64,000 nucleotides of DNA, taken from the NCBI RefSeq assembly GCF_000981765.1, contig NZ_CP010975.1, positions 1,922,001 to 1,986,000 of the forward strand. The letters are read 5' to 3'. A model generated the notes under the pieces. That model did no database searches. It saw nothing but the letters and a program-made list of their open reading frames with translations, and was not told the DNA's origin. Source of the stretch: Kangiella geojedonensis (GTDB lineage Bacteria; Pseudomonadota; Gammaproteobacteria; Enterobacterales; Kangiellaceae). Shown here one piece after another: positions 49,073 through 62,043 of this stretch (positions are counted from its first letter, which is position 1; every line of letters begins with the position of its first letter). The translations under genes were made by a program, and so were the position numbers.

Positions 49073-50164
49073 ATGGCACTAAATTGTGGAATCGTGGGCT
49101 TGCCCAATGTTGGAAAATCAACACTTTTCAATGCACTGACTGACGCAGGCATCGACGCTGCCAACTACCCTTTCTGTACTATTGAACCGAATACCGGCGT
49201 GGTGCCAATCCCTGACCCGCGTTTAGACGCTATTTCAGCAATCGCTAAGCCACAAAAGATCTTACCGGCTACGATGGAGTTCGTAGACATCGCAGGCCTA
49301 GTAGCGGGCGCCTCAAAAGGCGAAGGCTTGGGTAACAAGTTCCTAGCCAATATCCGTGAAACTCACGCTATCGCCCACGTGGTACGCTGCTTCGACAACG
49401 ACGACGTGGTACACGTCGATGGTAAAGTTGATCCACTGGCTGACATCGACACCATTAACACCGAGTTAGCGCTAGCGGATCTAGAAGCCGTTGAAAAGCG
49501 CATGATAAAAACGGCGAAAGTCGCTAAAAGCGGCGACAAAGACGCTAAAATCGAGTTAGAGCTGTTAGAAAAGTCAAAAGCCTGTCTCGACGAAGGTAAC
49601 GCCCTTCGCAGCATGGACTTGGACAAAGACGAGCGTAAATTAATGCGCAAGTTCCAGTTAATTACGATTAAACCGACCATGTACATCGCCAACGTCAGCG
49701 AAGACGGTTTTGAAAACAACCCACTACTTGACCAAGTACGTGAGTTCGCTGCTTCAGAAAACGCCGAAGTAGTACCAATCTGCGCCTCTATCGAATCTGA
49801 AATCGCCGCCCTAGACGATGAAGACAAAATCGACTTCCTAGCCGACCTAGGCCAAGAAGAGCCAGGTTTGAACCGCGTGATTCGTGCTGGTTATAACCTA
49901 CTTGAGCTACAGACTTACTTCACCGCAGGTGAAAAAGAAGTTCGCGCATGGCAGGTCAAAGTCGGCGCCACAGCTCCACAAGCCGCTGGCGTGATCCACA
50001 CAGACTTCGAAAAAGGCTTCATCCGCGCCGAAGTCGTGGCTTATGACGACTACATCGCTGGAAACGGCGAAGCAGGCGCTAAAGAAGCCGGAAAATGGCG
50101 TCTAGAAGGCAAAGACTACATCGTCAAAGACGGCGACGTCATGCACTTCCGCTTCAACGTATAA
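49073..50164 (+). CDS. ychF: redox-regulated ATPase YchF (Obg family)
   Basis: A 363-residue OLA1-type P-loop protein that prefers ATP and binds ribosomes. Walker A is GLPNVGKST, the switch region is [19 protein letters not shown], and the C-terminal TGS-like domain (about 280-363) ends VMHFRFNV. It is the last conserved gene before the tRNA-Met integration site. Confidence 0.97.
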
Positions 50165-50202
50165 CAGATGACAAAAAAGGCGCATATTTTCACCCGAAAG
50201 GC

Positions 50203-50231
50203 TTGACATAAAGCCCCGAAATCACGAAAAT
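50203..50231 (+). promoter_or_regulatory. tRNA-Met promoter
   Basis: A consensus TTGACA (50203-50208) lies 17 bases from GAAAAT (50226-50231). A GC-rich discriminator (ACGCGCCAC) follows, typical of growth-rate-controlled stable-RNA promoters. Confidence 0.65.
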
Positions 50232-50248
50232 ACGCGCCACTGAATTAA

Positions 50249-50325
50249 GGCTATGTAGCTCAGCTGGTTAGAGCACAGCATTCATAATGCTGGGGTCGGT
50301 GGTTCAAGTCCACCCATAGCTACCA
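50249..50325 (+). tRNA. tRNA-Met (elongator, anticodon CAT), integration target
   Basis: A 77-base tRNA with encoded CCA. The anticodon loop reads TTCATAA and the T arm is GGTGG-TTCAAGT-CCACC. The acceptor stem GGCTATG/CATAGCT has a G1-T72 wobble, where E. coli elongator tRNA-Met has G1-C72. From base 50281 onward its sequence is repeated at 59526-59573. The 3' half of this functional tRNA was therefore probably supplied by the integrated element. Confidence 0.96.
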
Positions 50326-50328
50326 TAT
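50281..50328 (+). repeat. attL: 48-bp direct repeat in tRNA-Met
   Basis: These 48 bases, from the anticodon loop to just past CCA, recur without a mismatch at 59526-59573. This is the expected core duplication of a tyrosine integrase that targets a tRNA 3' end. Confidence 0.93.
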
Positions 50329-50333
50329 ATATC

Positions 50334-50366
50334 AAAGGGTTACGTCATTTTTCGTAACCCTTTTTT
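50334..50366 (+). terminator. intrinsic terminator after tRNA-Met
   Basis: AAAGGGTTACG and CGTAACCCTTTTTT form an 11-bp stem ending in a T-run. A terminator at the equivalent place follows the attR copy (59575-59610), so this is part of the element end. Confidence 0.88.
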
Positions 50367-50381
50367 ATTGCCTGAAAAAAC

Positions 50382-50401
50382 GTAAGTCCACCGTAAGTCC
50401 A
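50382..50401 (+). repeat. GTAAGTCCA double repeat, left arm
   Basis: GTAAGTCCACCGTAAGTCCA holds two GTAAGTCCA units 11 bases apart. It begins 101 bases after the start of the att core. Identical copies lie at 59365-59384 and 59627-59646. These are candidate arm-type integrase binding sites. Confidence 0.7.
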
Positions 50402-50502
50402 ACGTAGATTAATAAAACACCTCTTTTTTTATACTTATCTCTTCCATAAACACCTGTTTAGAGGTTAGATAAGGTATATTTTTTCGCAAAAATGAAAATG
50501 CC

Positions 50503-51162
50503 ATGTGTGGACTAATTGAACTGACACAAAAGCCAGCTAAAAAGGTCGAGAAAACTCTGGATCTACAAGTGCCACTAGAGCTAGGTACATTTCGTTGCTA
50601 TAAACCTGTACAGATAGTCTTGAATGACGGCCAGACCAACAATGTCATTAAAGCAATGTGGCAGTTTTTATTGGAGAATAAGTCAAGAGAGTGGAAAGCT
50701 AGCAAGTACACTTCTTTTAATAGTCGTTGGTATGAAGGGAAAGGCTTTAAAAAGTCATTTACTAAGGCGTACCGTGAATCCCGCTGTCTAATACCTGCTA
50801 GTGGGTTCGTGGAAGGAATGAACAAAGTCTATCACTTGCTAAAGCCCATAGATGGAAGTCCGATATACTTTGGAGGCCTATTCAAGCAATGGGGTGATCC
50901 AGAGAACCCTGTATATTCTGCCTCTATGATTACCATTCCCCCACACGAAAAGTTAGCCAATATTCATAAAAAAGCCATGCCTTTAATGATACCTTATGAT
51001 GATTTAACAATGTGGCTAGATTCAGACCTTACCAACACAGACGCTTTCAGCGACTTTATGCGCCCACAATTAAAGCAAGACTTTGATGCAGTTCAGATAA
51101 GGGGGTGGAGGGACCTAACACCTGTAAGCGATAAAGTTCTAATAGAGTCAGATTTAAAATAA
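50503..51162 (+). CDS. SRAP domain protein (HMCES/YedK type)
   Basis: A 219-residue SRAP protein. This family covalently captures abasic sites in single-stranded DNA through a thiazolidine link to Cys2 and shields them from breakage. The catalytic set is complete: Cys2 after the start methionine, Asn73 in FNSR, Glu104 in IPASGFVE and His155 in NIHKKAMP, at positions close to those of E. coli YedK. Because Cys2 must be exposed after methionine removal, the ATG at 50503 is the only sensible start, although its ribosome site is poor. It is the first gene inside attL, on the opposite strand to the rest of the island. SRAP genes are frequent on phages and islands. Confidence 0.9.
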   Translation: MCGLIELTQKPAKKVEKTLDLQVPLELGTFRCYKPVQIVLNDGQTNNVIKAMWQFLLENKSREWKASKYTSFNSRWYEGKGFKKSFTKAYRESRCLIPASGFVEGMNKVYHLLKPIDGSPIYFGGLFKQWGDPENPVYSASMITIPPHEKLANIHKKAMPLMIPYDDLTMWLDSDLTNTDAFSDFMRPQLKQDFDAVQIRGWRDLTPVSDKVLIESDLK

Positions 51163-51270
51163 AGCATTATTTACAAGACAATATGCAGTAAAGTGAAAAG
51201 TTAAAACACAGAAGTTAGGCGGATGCTGGCGACTACCTTCAAAAAATATGAATAAGACTGCTGAGGTAAT

Positions 51271-51981
51271 TTATTTAGCTTCGCTACTATCAATAAAATC
51301 TAAGGCTGAAGATATTGCAAATTTTCTTATTTTGAAAAAGCTATTAACGTCAATAATATCCCTTGCCATTTCTAAAACAAACTTCTTCTTTATCGATTTA
51401 GCATCTAGCTCTCCTTCCCCTTCCCTTTGTTCTAATATTTCAGAAGTAAGCTTTGATGCATTTTGCATAGCCTGATCTCTAACATGGCCCCTACTAGCAT
51501 CTCCTCTTAGAGCCTCAGCTAACGATTCACTACTACCAATATCTATCAAAGCGTGTTCAATTGGGATTAAATTTTCACTCATTTCCTCAGAAATCCAAGG
51601 TGAATAATCTATCCTGATGCTTGCTAGCTCCCTTCCCATATTCGTAGCTTCCTCACAAGCTCCTCTAGCAAAGAGCTCTCCAATAACCTGATGAAGTTTT
51701 GCTATATAGGTTTGGCAAAATTCAGCATGCTTCTCGAATATTACTTCAGCCATAGGTGATTGTGAGGCAAGCTCAAACATATGCTGGTTACTCTGTAGGT
51801 ATTTTTGTCTCTCATAAGCTACACTATCAATAAGAATCTTAGCTACTATACTCAAACTTGCAATAACCCCAGGTACTGCAAGAAAACCTTTGAACCAACT
51901 GTCATCATCTGTAACTAAAGCTATCCAATAAGAGACAACAGCCAATAGAATTAATAAGATGTACGCACCAGTTTTATTCAT
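51271..51981 (-). CDS. two-helix membrane protein of the conjugation-like operon
   Basis: A 236-residue protein I do not recognise. Two N-terminal membrane helices (about 5-23 and 31-52) are followed by about 180 mostly helical, soluble residues with a charged stretch (LEQREGEGELDAKSIKKK). It lies nine bases after the four-helix protein, with a clear ribosome site (AAGGAAATTCT) that overlaps the previous stop, and it is the last gene of the operon. A membrane effector or sensor role is inferred only from the company it keeps. Base composition is AT-rich like the whole operon. Confidence 0.75.
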   Translation of the reverse strand: MNKTGAYILLILLAVVSYWIALVTDDDSWFKGFLAVPGVIASLSIVAKILIDSVAYERQKYLQSNQHMFELASQSPMAEVIFEKHAEFCQTYIAKLHQVIGELFARGACEEATNMGRELASIRIDYSPWISEEMSENLIPIEHALIDIGSSESLAEALRGDASRGHVRDQAMQNASKLTSEILEQREGEGELDAKSIKKKFVLEMARDIIDVNSFFKIRKFAISSALDFIDSSEAK

Positions 51982-51990
51982 AGAATTTCC

Positions 51991-52713
51991 TTAAAGGTTA
52001 TCACAAGCGCCTAACAAGCTTTTTGCATATCTAAAAGCTCTAGTAGTTACTATATCCATAGTCACAAATGAAATAGTATTAATCAAATACAAGGTATTTA
52101 ATATTAAACACAATATTAGTGGTGTTCGTCCTATCTCGGAAAAAATAGAAGAGGATACAAATGTGAGTGTCGTGAGAAAAATCAGATAAATTAGGCACAA
52201 TAAAGATATAACTATAGCAGCAGATTTCAATGCAAATAAATTCCTCATAAATCCATATGCTACATTATCCGCAAAAACTAGGGGGAACTTATTGTTGTCT
52301 CGAGTAGATTCTCTTAAATAGTTAGTAGCAGAACGATACTTTTCATCACTCCCATGAGGGTCACTACTTTCCTCATCATATGTTGGCATTTGGATGTTAA
52401 GTGCCAGTGACAAGAAGTCATGGTACCTCTTCTTGGTGATATTATCGATACGATCATCATGATGTCGTAAGATTATAGTTGTTGGCTCCGCACCAAGATA
52501 CTCAAATATTTTTGTTTGTATTTTATTACCAATCAAAGATACGTAATTTGAAAGTAAAAATAACAAGCCTGTCCAACCTAGAAATGTGTAAAGATATTGA
52601 ACTGTACTCAATAACTCTCTATGTACTAGTGTTATTAGTGCGATTGGTATAGAAATATACGCTAAAGGTAATATTCTTGCCTTAAAATTGTAAATATTAA
52701 ACTTATTAACCAT
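51991..52713 (-). CDS. four-helix membrane protein of the conjugation-like operon
   Basis: A 240-residue protein of unknown family. Helices lie at about 14-30, 40-62, 163-188 and 197-220. A cytosolic or periplasmic middle domain of about 100 residues (63-162) contains a polar acidic loop (YDEESSDPHGSDEKYRSATNYLRES). The ATG at 52713 overlaps the stop of the E2-E1-JAB gene in ATGGTTAA and has GGAGGG 12 bases upstream. An in-frame ATG at 52764 lies deep in the previous gene and is less likely. The hairpin-pair topology resembles membrane effectors of abortive-infection systems in general outline only. Confidence 0.75.
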   Translation of the reverse strand: MVNKFNIYNFKARILPLAYISIPIALITLVHRELLSTVQYLYTFLGWTGLLFLLSNYVSLIGNKIQTKIFEYLGAEPTTIILRHHDDRIDNITKKRYHDFLSLALNIQMPTYDEESSDPHGSDEKYRSATNYLRESTRDNNKFPLVFADNVAYGFMRNLFALKSAAIVISLLCLIYLIFLTTLTFVSSSIFSEIGRTPLILCLILNTLYLINTISFVTMDIVTTRAFRYAKSLLGACDNL

Positions 52714-54964
52714 CTGCAAGTAATTCCCTCCACTCATTTGGTATAGCAAGCTGAACAGTTTCATCGTTATTAGATACTGTCATTAGAGCAAATGGGGTGC
52801 TTATTTGCCTTTCAATTGTTTCTTTCATTTTTATATCTTTACCAGAAAACTTACTTGTACCAGAGGGGTGAGTATGCCAACTCCCTACAAGCTGTAACAT
52901 ACCTGCCGATCTTTCTTCAATATTTTTATGTTCTTCACTACTTTCAGCACTAGGCAACTCTAACTCAAATTCGGTAGCTTTAGTTGGATTTACTTCAGTC
53001 TCCTTAACAATAACGATCCTTTGCTCTTTAAGATTTAACCTACCATATAAAAATCCTCCACATTCAACTGGCGAGTTTGCATGTAATTTACCTCTAATTG
53101 ATTGGATTACATCATCACAAATACTTATCTCCCAACCTTCATTTTTTATTTTTTTAAAATCCGATACTTGAAACTGAGTACATCCAAGAGATAACCCATC
53201 TTTATTGAGTGAGTTAACCCATATAGAGTTATTAATTTTATTATTCTTTAGTATACAATTAACTACCGCGTTAAAATTAGAAACATGATTTCTAATATAA
53301 CTTACAGATAAACGTGTTGTTATAGAAGAGCAACTCATTCCGACCATTGTTGCTGTTGGGTTAGCCTCTGAGTTTAACCAGTCTTTTACGAAATCTTCCT
53401 CTAAACTTTTCATTAGTAAATAAACTTCAAGGTCCTCTAGGTTGCATTCAGCTTTATCTTTGGTAAATAGTAACACGCCAGTTTTACCTTTGTTTGATAT
53501 GTAGCATCTTGCAACTTTGTTTACAGGAAGCGAATCTAAAGAATAAATGGTGTCTTTGTCAGCTGTTGCATCAATAACCAAATCAGAATTTACAAGTTGA
53601 CTTTTTATTTCATCATCTATGTTCCTAAGCTCATTAGTGGATGATGTAATATTCCCATAGCCGTTATTTAATAAGTGCTCCTTGAGCTGATTTGACTTCC
53701 CCCACCCAATATCAGATTTCTGTAAAACATGTCTTGATATATTATGGGTCTCAAATTTATCATTATCTATTAATAATAAATTTGATCTACCCTCCCTAGC
53801 TAATGTATCTGCCAAATGTGATCCAACAGAACCACATCCTACTATTGAAATAGTACCATCACCGCTTTCTTCAATCCCAGATATCATTTTTGACAACTCT
53901 GCAGTTGGATTAGGAGTAATACTTAACTGCTCAACCTCTTTTATATCGGTCATCCCTGAATCTTGACTGTAGTGAACATGAATGACAAAAGAAAAAAGCT
54001 CAACTTTTCTGGCCTCGCCTGTTGCATCCGTAGGGATTTCTTTAATTAATTCTATTGTTCTTGGAATAGCAACAACCAGTATCATTTTTAATGGACTTTT
54101 AATTTCGCGACTTTTATCTAAGACTATCCTTTTTAATTGTTCAAATTTTTGCCCTACACCATGAACGTTACAAAATTCTTTTAAACTTTTTGAAGAGTTG
54201 ATATTTCTTAAATAGCGTGCATCAACTTCGTTTACTTTATCAATATATATCCCAGACCATATTGTATCTAAATAAAACTCAGCATCATCCTTATCTTTCT
54301 GTTTAAATGAAATACTTGGTAATTTTGTTAACTCAATATTATTTAATTTAAATGAATAGACTCTTCTGCCGTTAAAAACAAAACTAAATCCAGAAATACG
54401 CCCAAAACAAATACCTGAACGTTCCATTTTCTCATAAAAAAAACGTTGTAGCTCACCAATGTTTGTTACCAAAACATTGTCACTTACAAATGGTGTTGGC
54501 TCCCAACCATCATAATCCAGAAACCCACTTGCAGCATCAGTAAGCCACTGGGAAAGTACTTTGACAACTCCTCTAATACCAATATCCTTATACATTACAT
54601 TCGCACCAAGTCGAGACACACATATACTCATTGGTGAATTTTCATTAACTGGATTTAAATGTGGAAGATCCTGAGGAAAGTCTATGCGGTCCGAATATAT
54701 AGATGGCGCATCTACTGCTTCTCGAAATACAAGAACAATCTTTTCTTCAACTTGAATATCTTCTCTTATTGTTCTTCTTGGAATATCCCTTCTAACGCAT
54801 AAAGCAAAAATAAATGAATCATTAAAGCGCCTTATAGTAACTTTCCCTAAAACATTTTCACTTTGGATTAACTCAAAGTATTCAGACTGTAATTTTTTAG
54901 GAAGAGCTTTTACCTCTATTTCCACGCCTAGTTCAGATATTAGTTTAATTTTATTATTAACCAT
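52706..54964 (-). CDS. E2-like / E1 (ThiF) / JAB fusion: ubiquitin-like conjugation and deconjugation protein
   Basis: A 752-residue protein with three recognisable parts. Residues about 30-185 resemble prokaryotic E2-like domains (DLPHLNPVNENSPMSICVSR, then VLSQWLTDAASGFLD), with Cys115 as candidate E2 cysteine. Residues about 350-575 form an E1/ThiF adenylation domain: GCGSVG at 376-381, LLLIDND ending at Asp402, Asn408/Arg411, and DAT at 465-467. Cys545 in MVGMSCSS is a candidate E1 cysteine. Residues about 620-745 form a JAB/JAMM isopeptidase with a complete zinc set: Glu634 in ECGG, His697 and His699 in SWHTHPSG, Ser707 and Asp710. Activation, transfer and removal of a modifier are thus joined in one chain, as split between Cap2 and Cap3 in type II CBASS. 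Residues 186-350 are unassigned. It overlaps both neighbours by eight bases. Confidence 0.88.
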   Translation of the reverse strand: MVNNKIKLISELGVEIEVKALPKKLQSEYFELIQSENVLGKVTIRRFNDSFIFALCVRRDIPRRTIREDIQVEEKIVLVFREAVDAPSIYSDRIDFPQDLPHLNPVNENSPMSICVSRLGANVMYKDIGIRGVVKVLSQWLTDAASGFLDYDGWEPTPFVSDNVLVTNIGELQRFFYEKMERSGICFGRISGFSFVFNGRRVYSFKLNNIELTKLPSISFKQKDKDDAEFYLDTIWSGIYIDKVNEVDARYLRNINSSKSLKEFCNVHGVGQKFEQLKRIVLDKSREIKSPLKMILVVAIPRTIELIKEIPTDATGEARKVELFSFVIHVHYSQDSGMTDIKEVEQLSITPNPTAELSKMISGIEESGDGTISIVGCGSVGSHLADTLAREGRSNLLLIDNDKFETHNISRHVLQKSDIGWGKSNQLKEHLLNNGYGNITSSTNELRNIDDEIKSQLVNSDLVIDATADKDTIYSLDSLPVNKVARCYISNKGKTGVLLFTKDKAECNLEDLEVYLLMKSLEEDFVKDWLNSEANPTATMVGMSCSSITTRLSVSYIRNHVSNFNAVVNCILKNNKINNSIWVNSLNKDGLSLGCTQFQVSDFKKIKNEGWEISICDDVIQSIRGKLHANSPVECGGFLYGRLNLKEQRIVIVKETEVNPTKATEFELELPSAESSEEHKNIEERSAGMLQLVGSWHTHPSGTSKFSGKDIKMKETIERQISTPFALMTVSNNDETVQLAIPNEWRELLADG

Positions 54965-56021
54965 AAGTGAACGGAGTTCTATTTACTTGTTCTTTTTGCA
55001 TTTTTGTATTTTTTTTATTAAATCCCTTTTCATCAAACTCAAATACTACTTTTCCAGGTTTTCCGTTATCATTTACAGCTGTGTTTATAAATCTTTCTTT
55101 ATACTCAAAACTTTTATGCTCCTTTAGAATACCAAGATACTTTTGCTTGGCTTCATAAGAAGGGGGGTTGTCAGCATCATCCTTAACTTCTTTGCTACTA
55201 CAAACTATGAAGCCATCACAGTTTTTATCTATTTTACTTAAAGCATTTAAAGCACCATCAGAATATATATACTTTTCGTCTTTTTCTTTTCGAGCTATAC
55301 ATTTTCTTGAACAATGATGAGGTGCTAGCAATATTGACCAGCTTAACTCTTCATCTTTGAAGTCTTTTCTTATGCGCTCCCACACATTAACTCCTGCATC
55401 CCCTCCCAGCAAAATGTAACTACTTTCACTATTACTAATATATTCCCATCTTATTACTATGCTACTGTCATTACTGGAGTTAGGGGTTTCTTTATCTTCA
55501 GCTTTAGGAATATTAGCCTCATCTTTCGTCGGAGCCAGTAATTTCCATTTTAAATTATCTGTTAGCTCCCCGTTTGGAGTATCTTCTACACTCATTACCA
55601 ATAAACTATTGCCATCCGAAGACGAAACCTTTTTATTTCTTCTCTTTATTTCATTTAGAATTGGTTTTGAATCTTCTGTATCATAGTTTGGCTCTATACA
55701 ATATTGGCTACACCATATTTCCTTTACAAGAATTTTTCCCGACTTAGGATTGTATGTAGATGGATCACCAAGATGAAATAAGTCCTTCGTGCCACTAATA
55801 TGATCTTTATCTGGATGTGTACAAACAAAAATATCTAGCTCGTACCTATCACCGACTCTACAAGCATCTTTGATATCTTGCCTTATGTCGTAATCCTCCG
55901 AACTATCTTCTTCTGAAGACTTTCTATGGTTAATATCAGTCAAAACTGTCTTACCATCCAACTCAAATAAAACAGTATCTCCATTACCGACAGGGAAAAA
56001 TGAGACTTTATCTTTATTCAT
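54957..56021 (-). CDS. ComEC-like metallo-beta-lactamase-fold hydrolase
   Basis: A 354-residue stand-alone protein of the ComEC/Rec2-type MBL class. The metal motif THPDKDH (68-74) gives His69, Asp71, Asp73 and His74. NDSSIVIRW (184-192), LLGGDAG with Asp208, and APHHCS with His235/His236 complete the set typical of the ComEC branch, whose members act on nucleic acids or phosphodiesters. There is no signal peptide or membrane helix, so it is cytosolic. A lysine-rich tail (about 333-354) extends past the fold. It is the first gene of the four-gene operon, and its stop overlaps the next ATG in ATGGTTAA. It could be the effector, or the protein modified by the E1/E2 partner. Confidence 0.85.
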   Translation of the reverse strand: MNKDKVSFFPVGNGDTVLFELDGKTVLTDINHRKSSEEDSSEDYDIRQDIKDACRVGDRYELDIFVCTHPDKDHISGTKDLFHLGDPSTYNPKSGKILVKEIWCSQYCIEPNYDTEDSKPILNEIKRRNKKVSSSDGNSLLVMSVEDTPNGELTDNLKWKLLAPTKDEANIPKAEDKETPNSSNDSSIVIRWEYISNSESSYILLGGDAGVNVWERIRKDFKDEELSWSILLAPHHCSRKCIARKEKDEKYIYSDGALNALSKIDKNCDGFIVCSSKEVKDDADNPPSYEAKQKYLGILKEHKSFEYKERFINTAVNDNGKPGKVVFEFDEKGFNKKNTKMQKEQVNRTPFTYG

Positions 56022-56149
56022 GATCGCTCCTAGCTTGTTGTTCTAGGCCTATATGGGGGCTTCATTAGTAATTTCAACGGAACGCATCACATTTTATTAA
56101 ATAATCTAATATTGCAATGTTGCTCTTTATACCCATGCAACAATGCAAC
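56022..56149. promoter_or_regulatory. operon upstream region with 12-bp inverted repeat
   Basis: This 128-base spacer precedes the MBL gene. TTGCAATGTTGC (56112-56123) and GCAACAATGCAA (56137-56148) form an inverted repeat with one mismatch and a 13-base centre, one base after the end of repA. It may be an operator for the defence-like operon or a weak terminator for repA. Confidence 0.4.
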
Positions 56150-57130
56150 TTAGTCTAACTTCCCTTTTGCCTTCAAATATTTAAACTTTCTACTGATAGT
56201 AGACTTATTAACTCCAAGTTCCTCTGCTATTTCTGATTGGTTTAGCCCTTCCCCACTTAGCTTTCTAATTTTTAATAACTCAGAATCTTGTTTTTTTTGC
56301 CACTGCCACTGATAGCCCTCTTTATCTTCTATTTCCAATCTAGCCTCTATTGGCTCAGCATCTTCGCCACTAAACCCTCTGGCTTTCTCAAAGTGTACTT
56401 CAAATCTTGCACCATCAGACTGTTTGTAGTCATCTGGGTGCTTTAGTGCTACAACCGTATCTAACGTATCTTCTCTTTTACTTGTACCACGCTGTCCTCC
56501 TCCCTTACCTGAGTGATGCACAAACAATACTGACCTACCCTCAGCTCTCAGTCTTAATGCCCACCCTTCAGTTATTCTCCAACTTTCTGCCTCGTTCTCA
56601 TTACCTGTACGGCAAAGCGTAGAAATATTATCGACAACAATTAAATCTACATCTGTAAAGTGTTTTAGTCGCGCTAATGAGCAAGGATCTGATAAGTCAG
56701 GCATTGCACCGCTTTGCTCATCGGGTGTCATTATTCGTAAATTATCACCCGGTATTAACCCGGTACGCTTTTGTATTTGTTTTAGCCTTGTTTGTAAGTC
56801 AGCAGAAGGCATTTCCCCATCAATATATAAAACTTTAACTGGTCTAGGTGCTTTCCAACCTAAGAATTCGCCACCTGTAGCTAATGCCACAGCTACTTCT
56901 AATGCAAAGTGTGTTTTACCCACACCCCTTGGAGCATAAACCATTGCTAAACCTTGTTTTGGTAGCCATGGTGCTAATAGTAACTCTCTAGGTGGTATTT
57001 TCTTTTTTAAGAACTCACCAATCTTTGAGACTTTAAAAGCAGGTGCGATATCATGTTCAGCCTTTGCCCAATTACCATCAAACTCTTCTGCTTCTCGATT
57101 AGTAGTAGGGATATGTTGATTAGGCATCAT
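56150..57130 (-). CDS. RepA-like hexameric ATPase with C-terminal helix-turn-helix
   Basis: A 326-residue RecA/DnaB-fold ATPase of the AAA_25/RepA type found on plasmids and integrative elements. Walker A is APRGVGKT (66-73), YIDGEM (102-107) carries the catalytic glutamate, and Walker B is LIVVDN (163-168). SVLFVHHSGKGGGQRGTS is the sensor-like histidine segment. A C-terminal helix-turn-helix (about 290-322, LNQSEIAEELGVNKSTISRK) is fused on. A role in element replication as a helicase is likely. Its start overlaps the AlpA-like gene by 11 bases. Confidence 0.82.
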   Translation of the reverse strand: MMPNQHIPTTNREAEEFDGNWAKAEHDIAPAFKVSKIGEFLKKKIPPRELLLAPWLPKQGLAMVYAPRGVGKTHFALEVAVALATGGEFLGWKAPRPVKVLYIDGEMPSADLQTRLKQIQKRTGLIPGDNLRIMTPDEQSGAMPDLSDPCSLARLKHFTDVDLIVVDNISTLCRTGNENEAESWRITEGWALRLRAEGRSVLFVHHSGKGGGQRGTSKREDTLDTVVALKHPDDYKQSDGARFEVHFEKARGFSGEDAEPIEARLEIEDKEGYQWQWQKKQDSELLKIRKLSGEGLNQSEIAEELGVNKSTISRKFKYLKAKGKLD

Positions 57131-57326
57131 AACCTCCCTGCACCGTTTGATTATCCAAGAAAGTTGATAGGTCTTTGCTTCTATAGCGTATATATCGCCC
57201 TACTTTAATATAAGGCAAGGGATAGCGGTTCTCACAACGCCATACTGCTAAAGTGTGCTCAGTAACCCCTAAGATTTCAGAAACCTCTTTAGGCGTTAAT
57301 AATGATTCTTGTGAATTTAGATTCAT
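57120..57326 (-). CDS. AlpA/excisionase-type helix-turn-helix protein
   Basis: A 68-residue DNA-binding protein with a winged helix-turn-helix of the MerR/AlpA class (LLTPKEVSEILGVTEHTLAVWRC, then YIKVGRYIRYRSKDL). Such proteins direct integrase toward excision or activate the integrase gene. It lies between the integrase-linked gene and repA, as on many tRNA-borne elements. Confidence 0.85.
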   Translation of the reverse strand: MNLNSQESLLTPKEVSEILGVTEHTLAVWRCENRYPLPYIKVGRYIRYRSKDLSTFLDNQTVQGGYDA

Positions 57327-57422
57327 GGTAACTGCTCCAAATGTAGTTGAATGTATGGAGCAGATACTAGAATTTATTATGTTGAAATGTGTGATCCCTA
57401 ACGTTAGCGATCTGATCGCTAA

Positions 57423-58094
57423 CTATTCAAGAGTGCTTATTGCATCTCTAATGTGCCTTGCCATAGTTTGTTGATTAAATGGAATTTCTCCATCAGGCCA
57501 CCATATTAAAGACTTTTCATCTATAACCTTAGCTACTTTAGGCGCACTTACTTTTCCAGCAGTCTTGCACTGCTCTGGGAACTTAACCAACACTGCAACA
57601 ACGGCACGAAACATTAACTCGCGATCATCTGAGTATTTCTTTGCTTTTCTTGGCTTGATATGGCTTGTACTAGCTTTCTGTAAATACTCTTTTATTGCCC
57701 CGCTAAACACTCTAGGTTTAGGGAATTCTTTAGCCTCTACCCAATCTATGAAGTCCTCTTTCATAATTCGCCAGTCAGAGGGCTTAGCTTCTGGATTTAA
57801 GACTTTCAAGCTAGTTAAATAATCCGACTTGATACATTTTTTTACGTCTTCTGTATAAAAGTCTTTTCTTAAACTAGGCCAGTCTGTTGGTATAACTCCC
57901 ATTAACAATGGTATAGCCTCTCTATCAATAAGCCATGTATCTGCTTTAAAATAATTAACTACTCTTTGCACAAATAAACTAGAGTTGTTGGTATATTCTT
58001 CATATCTATCTTTAGCTTGGTTATAACTAGTTTCATAGAACTTATCTAAAGTTTGCCCAAAGACTTCCAGCGGATTATCAATTTTCTTATTCAC
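57423..58094 (-). CDS. island protein of unknown function
   Basis: A 223-residue soluble protein that I do not recognise. It is rich in Lys, Trp and aromatic residues. A C-terminal part (ELMFRAVVAVLVKFPEQ to FNQQTMARHIRDAIS) looks helical and could be a DNA-binding fold. The segment DWRIMKEDFIDWVEAKEFPKP recalls small element-encoded accessory proteins near integrases. It lies 12 bases downstream of the integrase and is probably co-transcribed with it. Confidence 0.7.
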   Translation of the reverse strand: MNKKIDNPLEVFGQTLDKFYETSYNQAKDRYEEYTNNSSLFVQRVVNYFKADTWLIDREAIPLLMGVIPTDWPSLRKDFYTEDVKKCIKSDYLTSLKVLNPEAKPSDWRIMKEDFIDWVEAKEFPKPRVFSGAIKEYLQKASTSHIKPRKAKKYSDDRELMFRAVVAVLVKFPEQCKTAGKVSAPKVAKVIDEKSLIWWPDGEIPFNQQTMARHIRDAISTLE

Positions 58095-58106
58095 ATATCC
58101 TCCTAT

Positions 58107-59348
58107 TTAACCTAATGTTGCTACCGCATCAGCCCTGTGCTCTGGTGCTAGGTGTGCGTATCTTAATGTTGTATTCATATCAGCATGACCGCATAGCTCT
58201 CGCACCGTATTAAGCGGTACGCCATTCATAACCAGTTTTGAGGCAAAGTCATGCCTCATGTCATGCCATCTAAAGTTAGGTATCTCTGCTTGCTTTAATA
58301 TGGAGGCCCATGACTTTTTAACGTTTGTTAGTTTCGTGCCGTTATGGGATGGGAATACTAAAGGATTACTTTTATCGCATTGGTCATGCCATGCCTTTAA
58401 TGCGGTGTATGCGGTATTATTAAGCGGTATATGACGGGTTCTGCTAGACTTTGCATTCTCTGCTCTTACGGTTAAAACCCGGTTATTCATGTCTACGTCA
58501 TGCCATGTTAAAGCGAACAACTCACCGCGTCTTAACCCGGTTTTAAGCGATAAAATAATCATTGGAGTCATTCGATCCCCATAAGCATGGGGTGTTAGAT
58601 CGGGTAACAAGGGGTAGTTTCTTTGTTTACGCCACTCATTACCCCTTTGACGTTCTTCTTTTAATGCGGTATCCCGGTCACTAAGTACCCTATATAACCG
58701 GGTTTCTTCACCGGGCGACAGATACCGTACTAATGGGGTAGTACCCGTTTTTAATGCCTTTAGTTTTTGTAAGGGATGCTCAGAGATAACTTCCCATTCA
58801 ACTGCTTTAGTCAGCAAACCTCTAAGAGAAGCGACTTGCCTATTAACTGTGGTCGGCTTGATACCATCCCCCAAACGATCTTTACGCCATGCCTCAACCC
58901 TTCTTACAGTTATCTCTTCTAACGGGGTATTCATGAAGCAAGCATAACGCGAACGGATTAAGGACATAGTGCCTTTACCGTATTTATGGTGGGTTAATAT
59001 CCAAGGCTCATACAGTTCATCAATAAACGCACCAAGCCTTCTATTTTTTGTAGCTTCGGCTTCCTTTCTTTGTTTAACCTTTTCACTCTGAACATCTATC
59101 CCTTTCATGATGTCTGAGTATCTTTGTTGAGCAACCGATCTGGCATTGGCTGGAGTCATGTTATCGACTGCACCAAGCCTAATTCTTCTTCTAAGGTTTT
59201 GTGAGTTTCTATAGGTAAAGTAATAGCTCTTTTTGCCAGTTGGTTGAACCCTAACTAACAGCCCTGTCATCTCATCATCATGCACTTCATAAGGACGGGG
59301 TTTTGGCTCTAATTCTTCTACTAATGCCTTGGTAATCCGTTTTTTCAC
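58107..59348 (-). CDS. tyrosine integrase
   Basis: A 413-residue phage-type site-specific recombinase. An N-terminal arm-binding DUF4102-like region (about 1-95) precedes a core-binding SAM-like domain (about 105-200) and the catalytic domain. Catalytic residues are Arg273 (GLRRGE), His362 and Arg365 (WHDMRHDF), His388 (CGHAD) and nucleophile Tyr397 (RYAH). The start is GTG at 59348. A copy of the GTAAGTCCA double repeat lies 17 bases upstream, so integrase could bind at its own promoter. It should act on the 48-bp tRNA-Met core. Confidence 0.95.
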   Translation of the reverse strand: MKKRITKALVEELEPKPRPYEVHDDEMTGLLVRVQPTGKKSYYFTYRNSQNLRRRIRLGAVDNMTPANARSVAQQRYSDIMKGIDVQSEKVKQRKEAEATKNRRLGAFIDELYEPWILTHHKYGKGTMSLIRSRYACFMNTPLEEITVRRVEAWRKDRLGDGIKPTTVNRQVASLRGLLTKAVEWEVISEHPLQKLKALKTGTTPLVRYLSPGEETRLYRVLSDRDTALKEERQRGNEWRKQRNYPLLPDLTPHAYGDRMTPMIILSLKTGLRRGELFALTWHDVDMNNRVLTVRAENAKSSRTRHIPLNNTAYTALKAWHDQCDKSNPLVFPSHNGTKLTNVKKSWASILKQAEIPNFRWHDMRHDFASKLVMNGVPLNTVRELCGHADMNTTLRYAHLAPEHRADAVATLG

Positions 59349-59364
59349 CGTTTTTAAACATTTC

Positions 59365-59384
59365 GTAAGTCCACCGTAAGTCCA
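59365..59384 (+). repeat. GTAAGTCCA double repeat, integrase-side arm
   Basis: Identical 20-mer to 50382-50401, 161 bases before the attR core. In the excised circle this copy and the 50382 copy would flank the core on opposite sides, as arm-type sites do. Confidence 0.7.
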
Positions 59385-59525
59385 ATATAGATGAATTTAG
59401 CTGAATAAAAGATGAACACCCATGAAACAAGACATCTTTGTAAAGCATTGTTTTAATTGATTTTATAGCGATTTACAAAGAAATTCGATTGATTAAATTT
59501 CATACAGATTCATGGCCAGATCGCT

Positions 59526-59573
59526 TTCATAATGCTGGGGTCGGTGGTTCAAGTCCACCCATAGCTACCATAT
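59526..59573 (+). repeat. attR: 48-bp direct repeat (tRNA-Met 3' fragment)
   Basis: A perfect copy of 50281-50328, the 3' part of tRNA-Met from the anticodon loop to past CCA. It lacks the 5' half, so it is not a functional tRNA. Confidence 0.93.
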
Positions 59574-59574
59574 T

Positions 59575-59610
59575 AAAAAAGGCTTACAGAGCAATCTGTA
59601 AGCCTTTTTT
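59575..59610 (+). terminator. terminator beyond attR
   Basis: AAAAAAGGCTTACAG and CTGTAAGCCTTTTTT form a long stem with a T-run. Its sequence differs from the terminator after attL but its position relative to the core is the same. It has A- and T-runs, so it could act on both strands. Confidence 0.85.
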
Positions 59611-59626
59611 ATTGCCTTGGATTTAT

Positions 59627-59646
59627 GTAAGTCCACCGTAAGTCCA
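59627..59646 (+). repeat. GTAAGTCCA double repeat outside attR
   Basis: Third identical 20-mer, 101 bases after the start of the attR core and therefore outside the island as delimited by the att repeats. It matches the left-arm position exactly. Confidence 0.7.
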
Positions 59647-59658
59647 TTCTTATAATTA

Positions 59659-59670
59659 ACTCTGACCCCA
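59659..59670 (+). repeat. 12-bp inverted repeat, left copy
   Basis: ACTCTGACCCCA here is the reverse complement of TGGGGTCAGAGT at 60594-60605. The pair brackets the membrane-protein gene at 59706-60479. Confidence 0.65.
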
Positions 59671-59705
59671 TTTATTGAACCCCAGTACTTAAATCTGCTA
59701 TTTCA

Positions 59706-60479
59706 CTATACTTCAGAGTAGATATCTTTCAAATTCCCAATCATATTATTAGCTGCTACTTTATTTAAATTTCTTATATACTCTTCATGTACAGCTTGAA
59801 AATCATCTATTTCTTTTTTACTTGATTTTTTCCATTTGAAATAAAAAAATAAACCCTTTGTAGTGAAGTATGGAGTATTACCCCAATATTTAATGGCACC
59901 AATTTCCCTCAATGACTCAAGTAAATCGTGATCGACATTATTAAGATCTTCAGTAGAGCGCATTCTGGTGATTTCATCCTCATATAATTTGAAAACTTCC
60001 TTATTCAGATCACTGTTTGATTGCTCAAACCACATAGAAATTATTTCATGATCTAGGCGAGTTTCACTACTATTTGCAAGAAGTCGAAGATAATAATTAT
60101 CAATTAAAGCATAGAATGCATTCGAATACTTTCGATTTTCTATTACTAGATATCTATCTCTTTTATCTAAAGCAGCGTCAACTTTACCGAGAGCGAGCTT
60201 GAAAGCTCCATAAATAAAATGAAAAAGAACCCCTACAACAATATATAACAAAAAAATTCCTGCAGATTTTAATAGAGGGTAAAATAGTAAATCATAAACA
60301 TTAAAGTAACCTTCTAGAACTCCTACTTTGCTAGCAAAGGACCCTTTTAAAGAAAACAAGCCTATCAAAAGTTTCCAGTTATGAAATATCCATGCTGTGA
60401 TAAAAAAAACTATATAGGGGCTAGATAACCTTTCTTTAATTCCAGCCGCAGTTTCAGATATTACATTGTGTTCTCCCAA
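59706..60479 (-). CDS. membrane protein of unknown function in the second remnant
   Basis: A 257-residue protein. One membrane helix lies at about 22-43, with the start context KERLSSPYIVFFITAWIFHNWKLLI, and a long hydrophobic stretch at about 64-95. A cytosolic C-terminal region of about 155 residues looks like a winged-helix fold (HDLLESLREIGAIKYWGNTPYFTTKGLFFYF). The N-terminal pattern occurs in uncharacterised proteins scattered through accessory regions. The gene is AT-rich and flanked by 12-bp inverted repeats. The function is unknown; a defence or sensor role would be speculation. Confidence 0.72.
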   Translation of the reverse strand: MGEHNVISETAAGIKERLSSPYIVFFITAWIFHNWKLLIGLFSLKGSFASKVGVLEGYFNVYDLLFYPLLKSAGIFLLYIVVGVLFHFIYGAFKLALGKVDAALDKRDRYLVIENRKYSNAFYALIDNYYLRLLANSSETRLDHEIISMWFEQSNSDLNKEVFKLYEDEITRMRSTEDLNNVDHDLLESLREIGAIKYWGNTPYFTTKGLFFYFKWKKSSKKEIDDFQAVHEEYIRNLNKVAANNMIGNLKDIYSEV

Positions 60480-60593
60480 AACAATATTCCCTATTTGTGA
60501 AAATAAATTTTAATATAACACATTATTCATTAACTCCAATCTTAGAGTAGGTAACTGTTTTTAATCAGCTTTAATAATAATTGGGGTAATAAT

Positions 60594-60605
60594 TGGGGTC
60601 AGAGT
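60594..60605 (+). repeat. 12-bp inverted repeat, right copy
   Basis: TGGGGTCAGAGT, the partner of 59659-59670. A shorter TTGGGGT lies just before it at 60581. GGGGTCAGAGT-type motifs often border IS200-like or Y1-transposase genes in Gammaproteobacteria, but no transposase is present here. Confidence 0.6.
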
Positions 60606-60627
60606 ACAATTTCTTTAAAGACACTGA

Positions 60628-60650
60628 ATCCCGCGGTTAAATCGCGGGAT
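60628..60650 (-). terminator. hairpin after dbpA
   Basis: ATCCCGCG and CGCGGGAT form an 8-bp stem with a 7-base loop, 11 bases past the dbpA stop. No T-run follows on the minus strand, so it may be a stabilising hairpin and not a strong terminator. Confidence 0.5.
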
Positions 60651-60660
60651 GACACCTGTG

Positions 60661-62043
60661 CTAAATCTTCCTTGCTCTAAACTTTTTGCCTTTCATTTTG
60701 CCGCCGTTTAGGAGTTGTAGTGCAGCGTCGAGGATGTCGCTTTTGACGGCGACGTAGGCCCAGCTGTTGGCGATTTGGATTTTGCCGACGTCGTTGCCTT
60801 CGATACGGTAGTCTGCTGTGAGTGCGCCTAAAATATCACCGGGGCGGAGTTTTTGCTTTTTGCCACCGTCGATTTGGATGGTGGACATGGGGGCTTTGTA
60901 AGTTGGCTGGTTTAGCAGCTTGGTGTCAGGTAGTCCAAAGGTTTCAATGTCTTGCCCAAGATATTCCTCAAGGCGTTTTAATTTATGTTTTTCTTTACCG
61001 ATGACGATTGAGGCTGCGTTGCCTTTGTTACCAGCGCGGCCAGTACGCCCGATACGGTGGACGTGGATTTCTGGATCGCTGGCGATGTGGTAGTTAATCA
61101 CTAAATCGAGCGAGTCGATATCAAGACCGCGTGCCGCGACGTCAGTGGCGACCATAATCGAGACGCTGTTGTTGGTGAAACGCACTAGAGCTTGGTCACG
61201 TTCTTTTTGGTCCAAGTCGCCATGCAACGCTAGCACGCTAAAGCCGTAACTTTTTAGGTACTGGGTTAAGTCTTTGACGTGGCGCTTGGTGTTGCAAAAG
61301 ATCACGGTGGAGTCTGGGCGATGTTGTAGCAGTAATAATCTCACGGCGACGTCTCGCTCACCTTCGTCGCTGATGCGGTAGAAGTCCTGCTCGATGGTAG
61401 AGCCGGTATGTTGCTCTTCTAGTTTCACCGTTACTGACTCAACCATAATATGGTCAGCCATGGACTGAATTTCTTTAGGGTAAGTAGCGCTGAATAGCAG
61501 CGTTTGTCGTGCGCGCGGAATTTCAGCGACGATAGCTTCCATCGCATCTTCAAAGCCCATGTCTAGCATTCTGTCGGCTTCATCTAAGACTAAGGTAGAG
61601 ACTGAATCCAGATCTAGGGTTTGCTTTTCCAGATGATCCATAATTCGCCCAGGCGTGCCGACGACAATGTGAGCACCGAACTTTAACGAATCAGCCTGCG
61701 GTCTTAGCGGCGTACCACCACACAAGGTTAGTACTTTAATATTAGGAATGGGTCGCGCTAGACGGCGAATTTCTTCCGCCACCTGCTCCGCCAGTTCACG
61801 GGTCGGACACATCACCACCGATTGCACCGAGAATTTTTTTGGCTCTAATTTTTGTAGCATCCCGAGACCGAACACGGCTGTTTTACCCGAGCCAGTTTTG
61901 GCCTGAGCGATCACGTCTTTACCTTCTAACACATGCGGTAAGGCTTGCTCTTGGATCGGCGTCATGCCCTCGAAGCCTAACTCGGCAAGGTTGGCTATTA
62001 ACTCTTGTTTTAGCGGTAAGGTGTTAAAGGCGACGTGACTCAT
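60661..62043 (-). CDS. dbpA: ATP-dependent RNA helicase DbpA
   Basis: A 460-residue DEAD-box helicase that is activated by hairpin 92 of 23S rRNA and helps 50S assembly. The Q motif, AKTGSGKT (motif I), PTRELAEQ (Ia), DEAD (in LVLDEADRMLD), SAT (motif III) and HRIGRTGR (motif VI) are all present. The C-terminal RNA-recognition domain (about 385-460; IQIDGGKKQKLRPGDILGAL) is specific for DbpA. Length matches E. coli (457). This gene marks the return to chromosomal DNA. Confidence 0.96.
   Translation of the reverse strand: MSHVAFNTLPLKQELIANLAELGFEGMTPIQEQALPHVLEGKDVIAQAKTGSGKTAVFGLGMLQKLEPKKFSVQSVVMCPTRELAEQVAEEIRRLARPIPNIKVLTLCGGTPLRPQADSLKFGAHIVVGTPGRIMDHLEKQTLDLDSVSTLVLDEADRMLDMGFEDAMEAIVAEIPRARQTLLFSATYPKEIQSMADHIMVESVTVKLEEQHTGSTIEQDFYRISDEGERDVAVRLLLLQHRPDSTVIFCNTKRHVKDLTQYLKSYGFSVLALHGDLDQKERDQALVRFTNNSVSIMVATDVAARGLDIDSLDLVINYHIASDPEIHVHRIGRTGRAGNKGNAASIVIGKEKHKLKRLEEYLGQDIETFGLPDTKLLNQPTYKAPMSTIQIDGGKKQKLRPGDILGALTADYRIEGNDVGKIQIANSWAYVAVKSDILDAALQLLNGGKMKGKKFRARKI

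Follow-up and report, generated by a model that had tools for sequence, protein, structure and literature searches.

A glycine-tailed MBL hydrolase, an E2-E1-JAB fusion and a membrane protein in a 6A-MBL operon of Kangiella geojedonensis with likeness to type II CBASS

In a stretch of 64,000 nucleotides from the Kangiella geojedonensis genome (contig NZ_CP010975.1, positions 1,922,001 to 1,986,000; the window), the minus strand carries at 51271-56021 an operon of four genes, which encode a hydrolase of the metallo-beta-lactamase (MBL) fold, an E2-E1-JAB fusion and two membrane proteins, TM1 and TM2. An earlier note, made from the letters of the window alone, had described these genes, and a check of the open reading frames (ORFs) verified their coordinates and strand. 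Judged by its sequence, the operon is of the 6A-MBL type and kin to the conjugation arm of the type II cyclic oligonucleotide-based antiphage signalling system (CBASS). We consider it likely that its MBL stands in the role that cGAS has in type II CBASS; a conserved glycine tail suggests that the MBL itself may be the protein conjugated by the E1-E2 enzyme.

NCBIfam names the fusion NF058523 '6A-MBL_cap2_3' (364.9 bits against a cut-off of 320) and the upstream MBL NF058524 '6A-MBL_enzyme' (251.6 bits against 220), and both marks of the class are present, i.e., one chain that carries E2, E1 and JAB in that order and an adjoining gene for a specialised MBL. The MBL-fusion core is thus a named, known type and hence not new. 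It already appears in row 6a of Table 1 of a 2006 survey (PMC1779556, as far as its text was accessible), where the MBL gene likewise stands directly upstream of the E2-E1-JAB chain. In the accessible part of that survey these systems usually have two genes and no membrane protein is named, whereas the window adds TM1, which is usual in relatives, and TM2, for which no relative was found. 'Anti-phage 6A-MBL' is the NCBIfam curator's label for MBL plus fusion; on this basis the link to defence drawn in the earlier note was called right, and we infer an anti-phage function of the operon from sequence likeness. Since NCBIfam has a name for it, the 6A-MBL system has evidently been studied by others before. 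Neither this name nor the Gly tail or TM1 was met in the literature searched, with bioRxiv preprints as such and most subscription papers outside its reach.

Our comparisons cover 59 fusion loci: the window, L003-L007, L040-L082 minus L081, and 11 plasmid loci. Three places were fetched twice (L004/L058, L005/L040, L006/L071), leaving 56 distinct places, and collapsing proteins more than about 90% alike gave 39 MBLs and 40 fusions. A genome-contig scan gave 44 loci, nearly all from Alphaproteobacteria by their titles. The plasmid loci belong to Bacteroidota (L085, L092, L093, L096), a cyanobacterium (L087) and Proteobacteria (L089-L091, L094, L095, L101). In addition, 398 genomes of the phylum, among them that of K. 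geojedonensis (one contig of 2.5 Mb), were searched for the family, and six of them have the fusion above cut-off.

The fusion (NF058523; 52706..54964, minus strand, 752 residues) contains the three Pfam domains in the order that had been read from the letters. An E2-like domain spans residues 73-160 (54485..54748; PF14457 Prok-E2_A, E 1.9e-12), an E1/ThiF adenylation domain residues 371-478 (53531..53854; PF00899, E 3.6e-15) and a JAB/JAMM isopeptidase domain residues 618-724 (52793..53113; PF14464 Prok-JAB, E 4.4e-12). The candidate residues proposed earlier are likewise borne out: Cys115 in the E2-like domain (54620-54622), the candidate E1 Cys545 beyond the ThiF domain (53330-53332) and the JAMM residues Glu634, His697, His699, Ser707 and Asp710 are each kept in 40 of the 40 non-redundant fusions. 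The E1 domain (residues 372-478) matches Cap2 in PDB 7to3 (E 2.3e-7), and the whole chain matches the PADLOC models E1-E2 (2.2e-26) and JAB (7.7e-14); the match to the Cap3 NCBIfam model is weak (1.2e-4, far under its cut-off). An MBL of the same family immediately precedes the fusion in 55 of the 56 distinct places. The exception, L077, is an alphaproteobacterial metagenome-assembled genome in which an inserted gene splits the fusion; the ORF between both pieces (L077:4599-5693) is presumably transposase-like.

The MBL (MBL-1, NF058524; 54957..56021, minus strand, 354 residues), whose gene overlaps the fusion gene by 8 nt, is ComEC-like, as the earlier note had it. A PDB search with the profile of its family picks up the ComEC MBL domain (E 2.3e-5), and the motifs HPDxDH, GDA and HH (H69, D71, D73, H74, D208, H235, H236) stand unchanged in all 21 proteins aligned. 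A ComEC-like MBL is a feature that the window has in common with AVAST (Avs1a), Lamassu (LmuA), DRT (RTasMBL) and Hachiman (HamM), and the window protein matches the PADLOC models LmuA (2.2e-12), RTasMBL (1.9e-11) and Avs1a (1.4e-8). The top fold matches of its model are the phosphorylcholine esterase Pce, with RNase J-type nucleases lower in the ranking. From these likenesses a phosphodiesterase or nuclease activity appears likeliest.

At its C-terminus the MBL bears a tail, residues 340-354 (54960..55004, minus strand), that ends in FTYG and is predicted to be disordered (predicted local distance difference test, pLDDT, below 50). We propose it as the conjugation tail. The closing Gly354 is invariant in 21 of 21 aligned proteins, and all 39 non-redundant MBL-1s, that of the window included, have HG, YG, AG or QG within their last nine residues, with His-Gly the commonest closing pair (32/39). 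Gly is the exact C-terminus in 30 of them. The other nine continue for 1-6 residues after it, as a precursor might be expected to do. The tail is otherwise variable and rich in A, G, S and T, which make up 49% of its letters versus 27% in the body. Outside MBL-1 such endings are rare: of 11 further MBL-fold proteins encoded at these loci, none has Gly as its last residue and none has one of those pairs within its last nine (L081, with a truncated fusion, was left out of this set, and the fragment L083 gave no gene), and a terminal Gly occurs in 2/51 fusions, the window's among them, and in 0/48 TM1 proteins. Three MBLs fetched after the Gly idea had formed (L130, L131 and L132, the latter two outside the counts of 39 and 40) all agree with it.

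Such an ending could arise trivially. The sequences CATGG and TATGG contain ATG, hence a terminal Gly might be a by-product of the MBL stop overlapping the fusion start, and an ATG does span the last MBL codons in 9/39 loci, including the window. However, no ATG crosses those codons in the other 30, several of which end in CAC GGC with the ATG of the fusion frame some bases past the stop. For these 30 loci we reject an overlap artefact, and this explanation, now largely refuted, has very little probability left.

We regard the MBL as the probable conjugated protein because its conserved Gly tail mirrors cGAS of type II CBASS. According to the accessible part of PMC10097602, the C-terminal Gly/Ala of cGAS is conserved only where Cap2 and Cap3 are present; cGAS forms a thioester and is conjugated through this residue, and Cap3 cuts after it. 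In the accessible part of PMC11153139, the cyclase is joined by its C-terminus to PspA, and Cap3 removes it scarlessly. With type II CBASS (CD-NTase, Cap2 E1-E2, Cap3 JAB and effector) the window shares a Cap2-related E1, a Gly-ended partner enzyme and an effector-like third gene. It differs in that an MBL hydrolase replaces the nucleotide cyclase and that the JAB domain is fused to the E1 instead of forming a separate Cap3. No nucleotidyltransferase stood among the Pfam matches listed for nine proteins (for the AAA protein of the island described below, the best 25 of 36).

Transferred to the window, this likeness gives a mechanism in which the flexible, Gly-ended tail of the MBL would be adenylated and loaded on E1 Cys545, then passed to E2 Cys115 and finally attached to target proteins at their lysines. 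Trimming of those tails that carry residues after the Gly could fall to the JAB domain, which could also take the MBL off its targets again. Through conjugation the MBL would become active or reach its place of action, and TM1 might act as a membrane-bound partner or executioner, either anchoring the MBL at the membrane or carrying out membrane damage. The earlier suggestion that the modifier pathway controls the MBL is thereby sharpened, since the tail points to the MBL itself as the protein conjugated.

Alternatively, the fusion might handle a separate ubiquitin-like protein (Ubl) encoded elsewhere, as in Bil, with the MBL and TM1 as mere target or effector. BilABCD resembles the window in uniting E1, E2 and JAB activities in one operon, though as separate genes rather than a single fused chain, and the E1-E2-JAB sets of Bil and polyUbl operons accompany a Ubl. 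Among the scanned island proteins there was no Ubl match, and hence no BilA-type modifier gene; this screening was confined to the island, whose small ORFs in the gaps were inspected and not run against the family library. The Gly ending that marks 39/39 MBL-1s versus 0/11 other MBLs also speaks against a separate Ubl. So do the sequence distances across 27 loci: those of MBL and fusion track each other closely (r 0.91), while fusion and TM1 reach r 0.56 and MBL and TM1 r 0.37, each unmatched in 2000 permutations (0/2000), with the kinship of loci not removed. By these distances MBL and fusion travel as one unit and TM1 is more exchangeable. We thus regard a separate modifier as unlikely and prefer conjugation of the MBL itself.

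TM1 (51991..52713, minus strand, 240 residues) is all-helical with probably four membrane helices, according to hydropathy and a model with pLDDT 94.6. The earlier note had given it as a 257-residue ORF from 52764; the gene stands, but its start more likely lies at 52713, because relatives align from there. This start overlaps the fusion stop by 8 nt. TM1 belongs to an unnamed family that has no Pfam, NCBIfam or PADLOC family of its own. Neither membrane protein meets any model of these three collections, the best for TM1 being Pfam MerC at E 0.26, far under the cut-off, and family matches of single TM1 relatives (1/23 members per family) look like chance. There was no PDB sequence match either, and the phage search found no TM1. 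That TM1 might be a known channel has found little backing so far: Foldseek gave only E ~1 to MotA/ExbB/TolQ stators and pore toxins. PDC-M48A as an identity for TM1 is not supported: this PADLOC model was not among the matches listed for nine proteins of the island and its flanks (for the fusion, the best 25 of 55) or found in six related genomes or records, and it was found in no control genome.

The surroundings of the fusion are more telling. TM1 is found at 46 of the 56 distinct fusion places (47 with a longer L003 stretch) and at 30 of the 40 non-redundant loci (31 with that stretch), and in 27/40 it is the next gene downstream on the same strand. A single-sequence search of the 41 proteins that follow the fusion in loci of the contig scan gives 36 matches to TM1, with E-values that refer to this small set. 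Among the 398 genomes, fusion and TM1 occur in six each and together in four, always in the same neighbourhood; without the window's own genome the figures are 5, 5 and 3 of 397, with a chance of about 1e-5 if kinship is ignored. The two are direct neighbours in three of the four shared genomes; the remaining one, G213 (L033), has a second MBL in between. The remaining two fusion genomes (G183, G271) are without TM1, and in the remaining two TM1 genomes (L109, L110) another kind of MBL, MBL-2, stands beside it. Together these counts suggest that TM1 is the usual third component of the system. Relatives of the fusion do occur with both the MBL and TM1, the association on which the earlier note had made its proposal depend.

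TM1 also has a life apart from the fusion. Of 46 TM1-bearing plasmid records 20 were opened. Where no fusion is adjacent, another ComEC-like MBL adjoins TM1 in 14 of the 15 opened loci, the fifteenth (L128) adjoining an insertion sequence (IS) element. Since TM1 adjoins MBLs even without the fusion, its primary tie appears to be to MBLs, and that to the E1-E2 chain secondary. Such loci occur in Rhodococcus, Curtobacterium, Variovorax, Staphylococcus and others. All five MBLs scanned beside a fusion-less TM1 have the PADLOC candidate PDC-M48B as their top model (E down to 8.6e-114), and these five lack both an adjacent E2-E1-JAB gene and a terminal Gly; the window MBL matches PDC-M48B weakly (3.7e-6). 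A two-gene module of MBL-2 and TM1 without adjacent E2-E1-JAB is seen in L086, L088, L098, L099, L102, L109, L110, L126, L127, L129 and L130, and is possibly a separate small defence system. L003/L033, L089 and L130 combine two arrangements at close range: a ThiF/E1 gene accompanied by a Gly-tailed MBL, and TM1 accompanied by a further MBL.

The close bond of TM1 with MBLs (14/15 fusion-less loci) also fits a different division of labour, in which the killing is done by the MBL, as a gated DNase that conjugation or JAB cleavage would release or place, and TM1 is an anchor, receptor or safety partner and no effector. In Hachiman and AVAST the MBL nucleases exist as gated proenzymes and degrade DNA once cut (PMC12799240, accessible part), and the window MBL resembles such enzymes in its LmuA, RTasMBL and Avs1a matches and in the match of its family profile to the ComEC MBL domain. 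The MBLs of that study, in the same part of the text, are switched on by proteases, whereas the partner here is an E1-E2-JAB chain. What speaks against a killing MBL is the gene slot after the fusion. In L092, a Fibrella plasmid, the usual TM1 slot holds a patatin-like phospholipase (L092:6145-7467), as in the effector swaps of CBASS, and in L007, L048, L071 and L094 it holds other predicted membrane proteins, as it does in L095, there on the opposite strand. Such swaps fit an exchangeable membrane effector. On balance a killing MBL is a substantial alternative that we nevertheless hold to be the less probable one, and we keep to TM1 as membrane partner or executioner. The post-fusion membrane proteins of L048, L071 and L094 are alike by eye (SLK start, GHRAFS motif) and possibly form a second family. 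L093 and L096 have no obvious partner in the slot, and in L069 the contig ends there.

Several observations weigh against an MBL acting as cGAS does with TM1 at its side. Concerning TM1, it is lacking in 9/40 non-redundant fusion loci (one at a contig edge), and its distances follow those of fusion (0.56) and MBL (0.37) less well than these follow each other. Its model matches nothing in PDB or BFVD at E <0.001, and its effector role therefore rests on topology and context. Concerning the tail, a Gly anywhere in the last seven residues is common (5/11 other MBLs, 22/51 fusions, 13/48 TM1s), so that only the exact Gly end and the Gly pair discriminate. Of the later MBLs, L132 has a tail nearly identical with that of L059, and the ThiF/E1 gene adjoining L130 is incomplete in its stretch, so that E2 and JAB are unverified there. 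For the window, the start codon of the fusion overlaps TAT GGT, the two final codons of the MBL, and the YG seen here is possibly in part a by-product. Finally, the confidence of the MBL model is moderate (75.7), and most loci come from one scan favouring Alphaproteobacteria, their kinship being kept in the statistics.

Taken further, the data invite a broader idea, which we put forward tentatively and at somewhat less than even chances. A ComEC-like MBL might have been made into a ubiquitin-like modifier without a beta-grasp fold, and MBL plus TM1 might be a general defence pair, with a short form (MBL-2 and TM1, no Gly tail) and a long form (Gly-tailed MBL-1, E2-E1-JAB and TM1). These forms would parallel type I and type II CBASS, a hydrolase replacing the cyclase, and TM1 would be an undescribed family. 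The accessible part of PMC1779556 names no protein that the E1-E2 chain of the 6A class, a prediction of 2006, would conjugate. If the MBL is that protein, the joining of a complete enzyme to its targets through its own tail would be a design that recurs in bacterial immunity and is not peculiar to cGAS. The Gly tail makes the idea testable at a single residue. In TM1 there is a definite candidate for the part of executioner or membrane partner, one whose association with further MBLs is a pointer to another, simpler and separately testable system.

The fourth gene fits less well into this picture. TM2 (51271..51981, minus strand, 236 residues) begins 9 nt after TM1, has two N-terminal hydrophobic helices and belongs to no family. 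As a conserved partner it is rejected, since plasmids, 40 relatives and a further 368 genomes of the class yielded no relative; our preferred reading is a local passenger or an accessory that changes fast. Of the membrane pair proposed earlier, TM1 hence holds as a widespread partner; a conserved pair does not.

The operon sits in an integrase island of 9.2 kb at a tRNA-Met gene (50249-50325). The 3' end of this gene forms part of attL (50278-50328, plus strand), a 51-nt repeat whose second copy, attR (59523-59573, plus strand), is 98% identical, and a tyrosine integrase is encoded next to attR (58107..59348, minus strand; PF00589, E 1.1e-32). In 3/3 congeners fetched among those matched, the joined flanks of the island align as one piece across the junction, i.e., the site is empty. 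Because att repeats flank the operon and congeners keep the empty site, we conclude that it arrived on this element of about 9.2 kb, in line with the mobile island of the earlier note. E. coli genomes gave no near match to 50000-62000. A phage or viral origin was considered and dropped, with no fusion relative confirmed in viral contigs.

The setting on an island here and on plasmids elsewhere might also mean that the operon is there not for defence but for maintaining or transferring mobile elements, or for responding to stress. This we find improbable: both core proteins carry anti-phage labels in NCBIfam, the distribution is patchy (6/398 genomes above cut-off), WYL genes lie near 5/11 plasmid loci, and type I restriction-modification genes lie near one. 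We hence keep to defence as the most plausible function.

Further genes of the island include an SRAP-family gene convergent to the operon (50503..51162, plus strand; PF02586, E 1.3e-22), an AAA_25/HTH protein (56150..57130, minus strand; PF13481, E 3.7e-31), which we take to be RepA-like, and an unnamed gene at 57423-58094 between the latter and the integrase. Between the AAA gene and this unnamed gene, an ORF of about 100 residues (57080-57480, minus strand) has what we take, from its motif and without a family search, to be an AlpA/excisionase-like helix-turn-helix stretch. A promoter scan gave fewer matches than shuffled sequence. Just outside attR, a 257-residue membrane ORF (59706-60479, minus strand) lies outside the listed congener matches and weakly matches PHROGs 4780 and 13369, both annotated as 'unknown function'. 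Near both att sites, an identical stretch of 20 bases occurs three times (50382-50401, 59365-59384 and 59627-59646), possibly as arm sites of the integrase.

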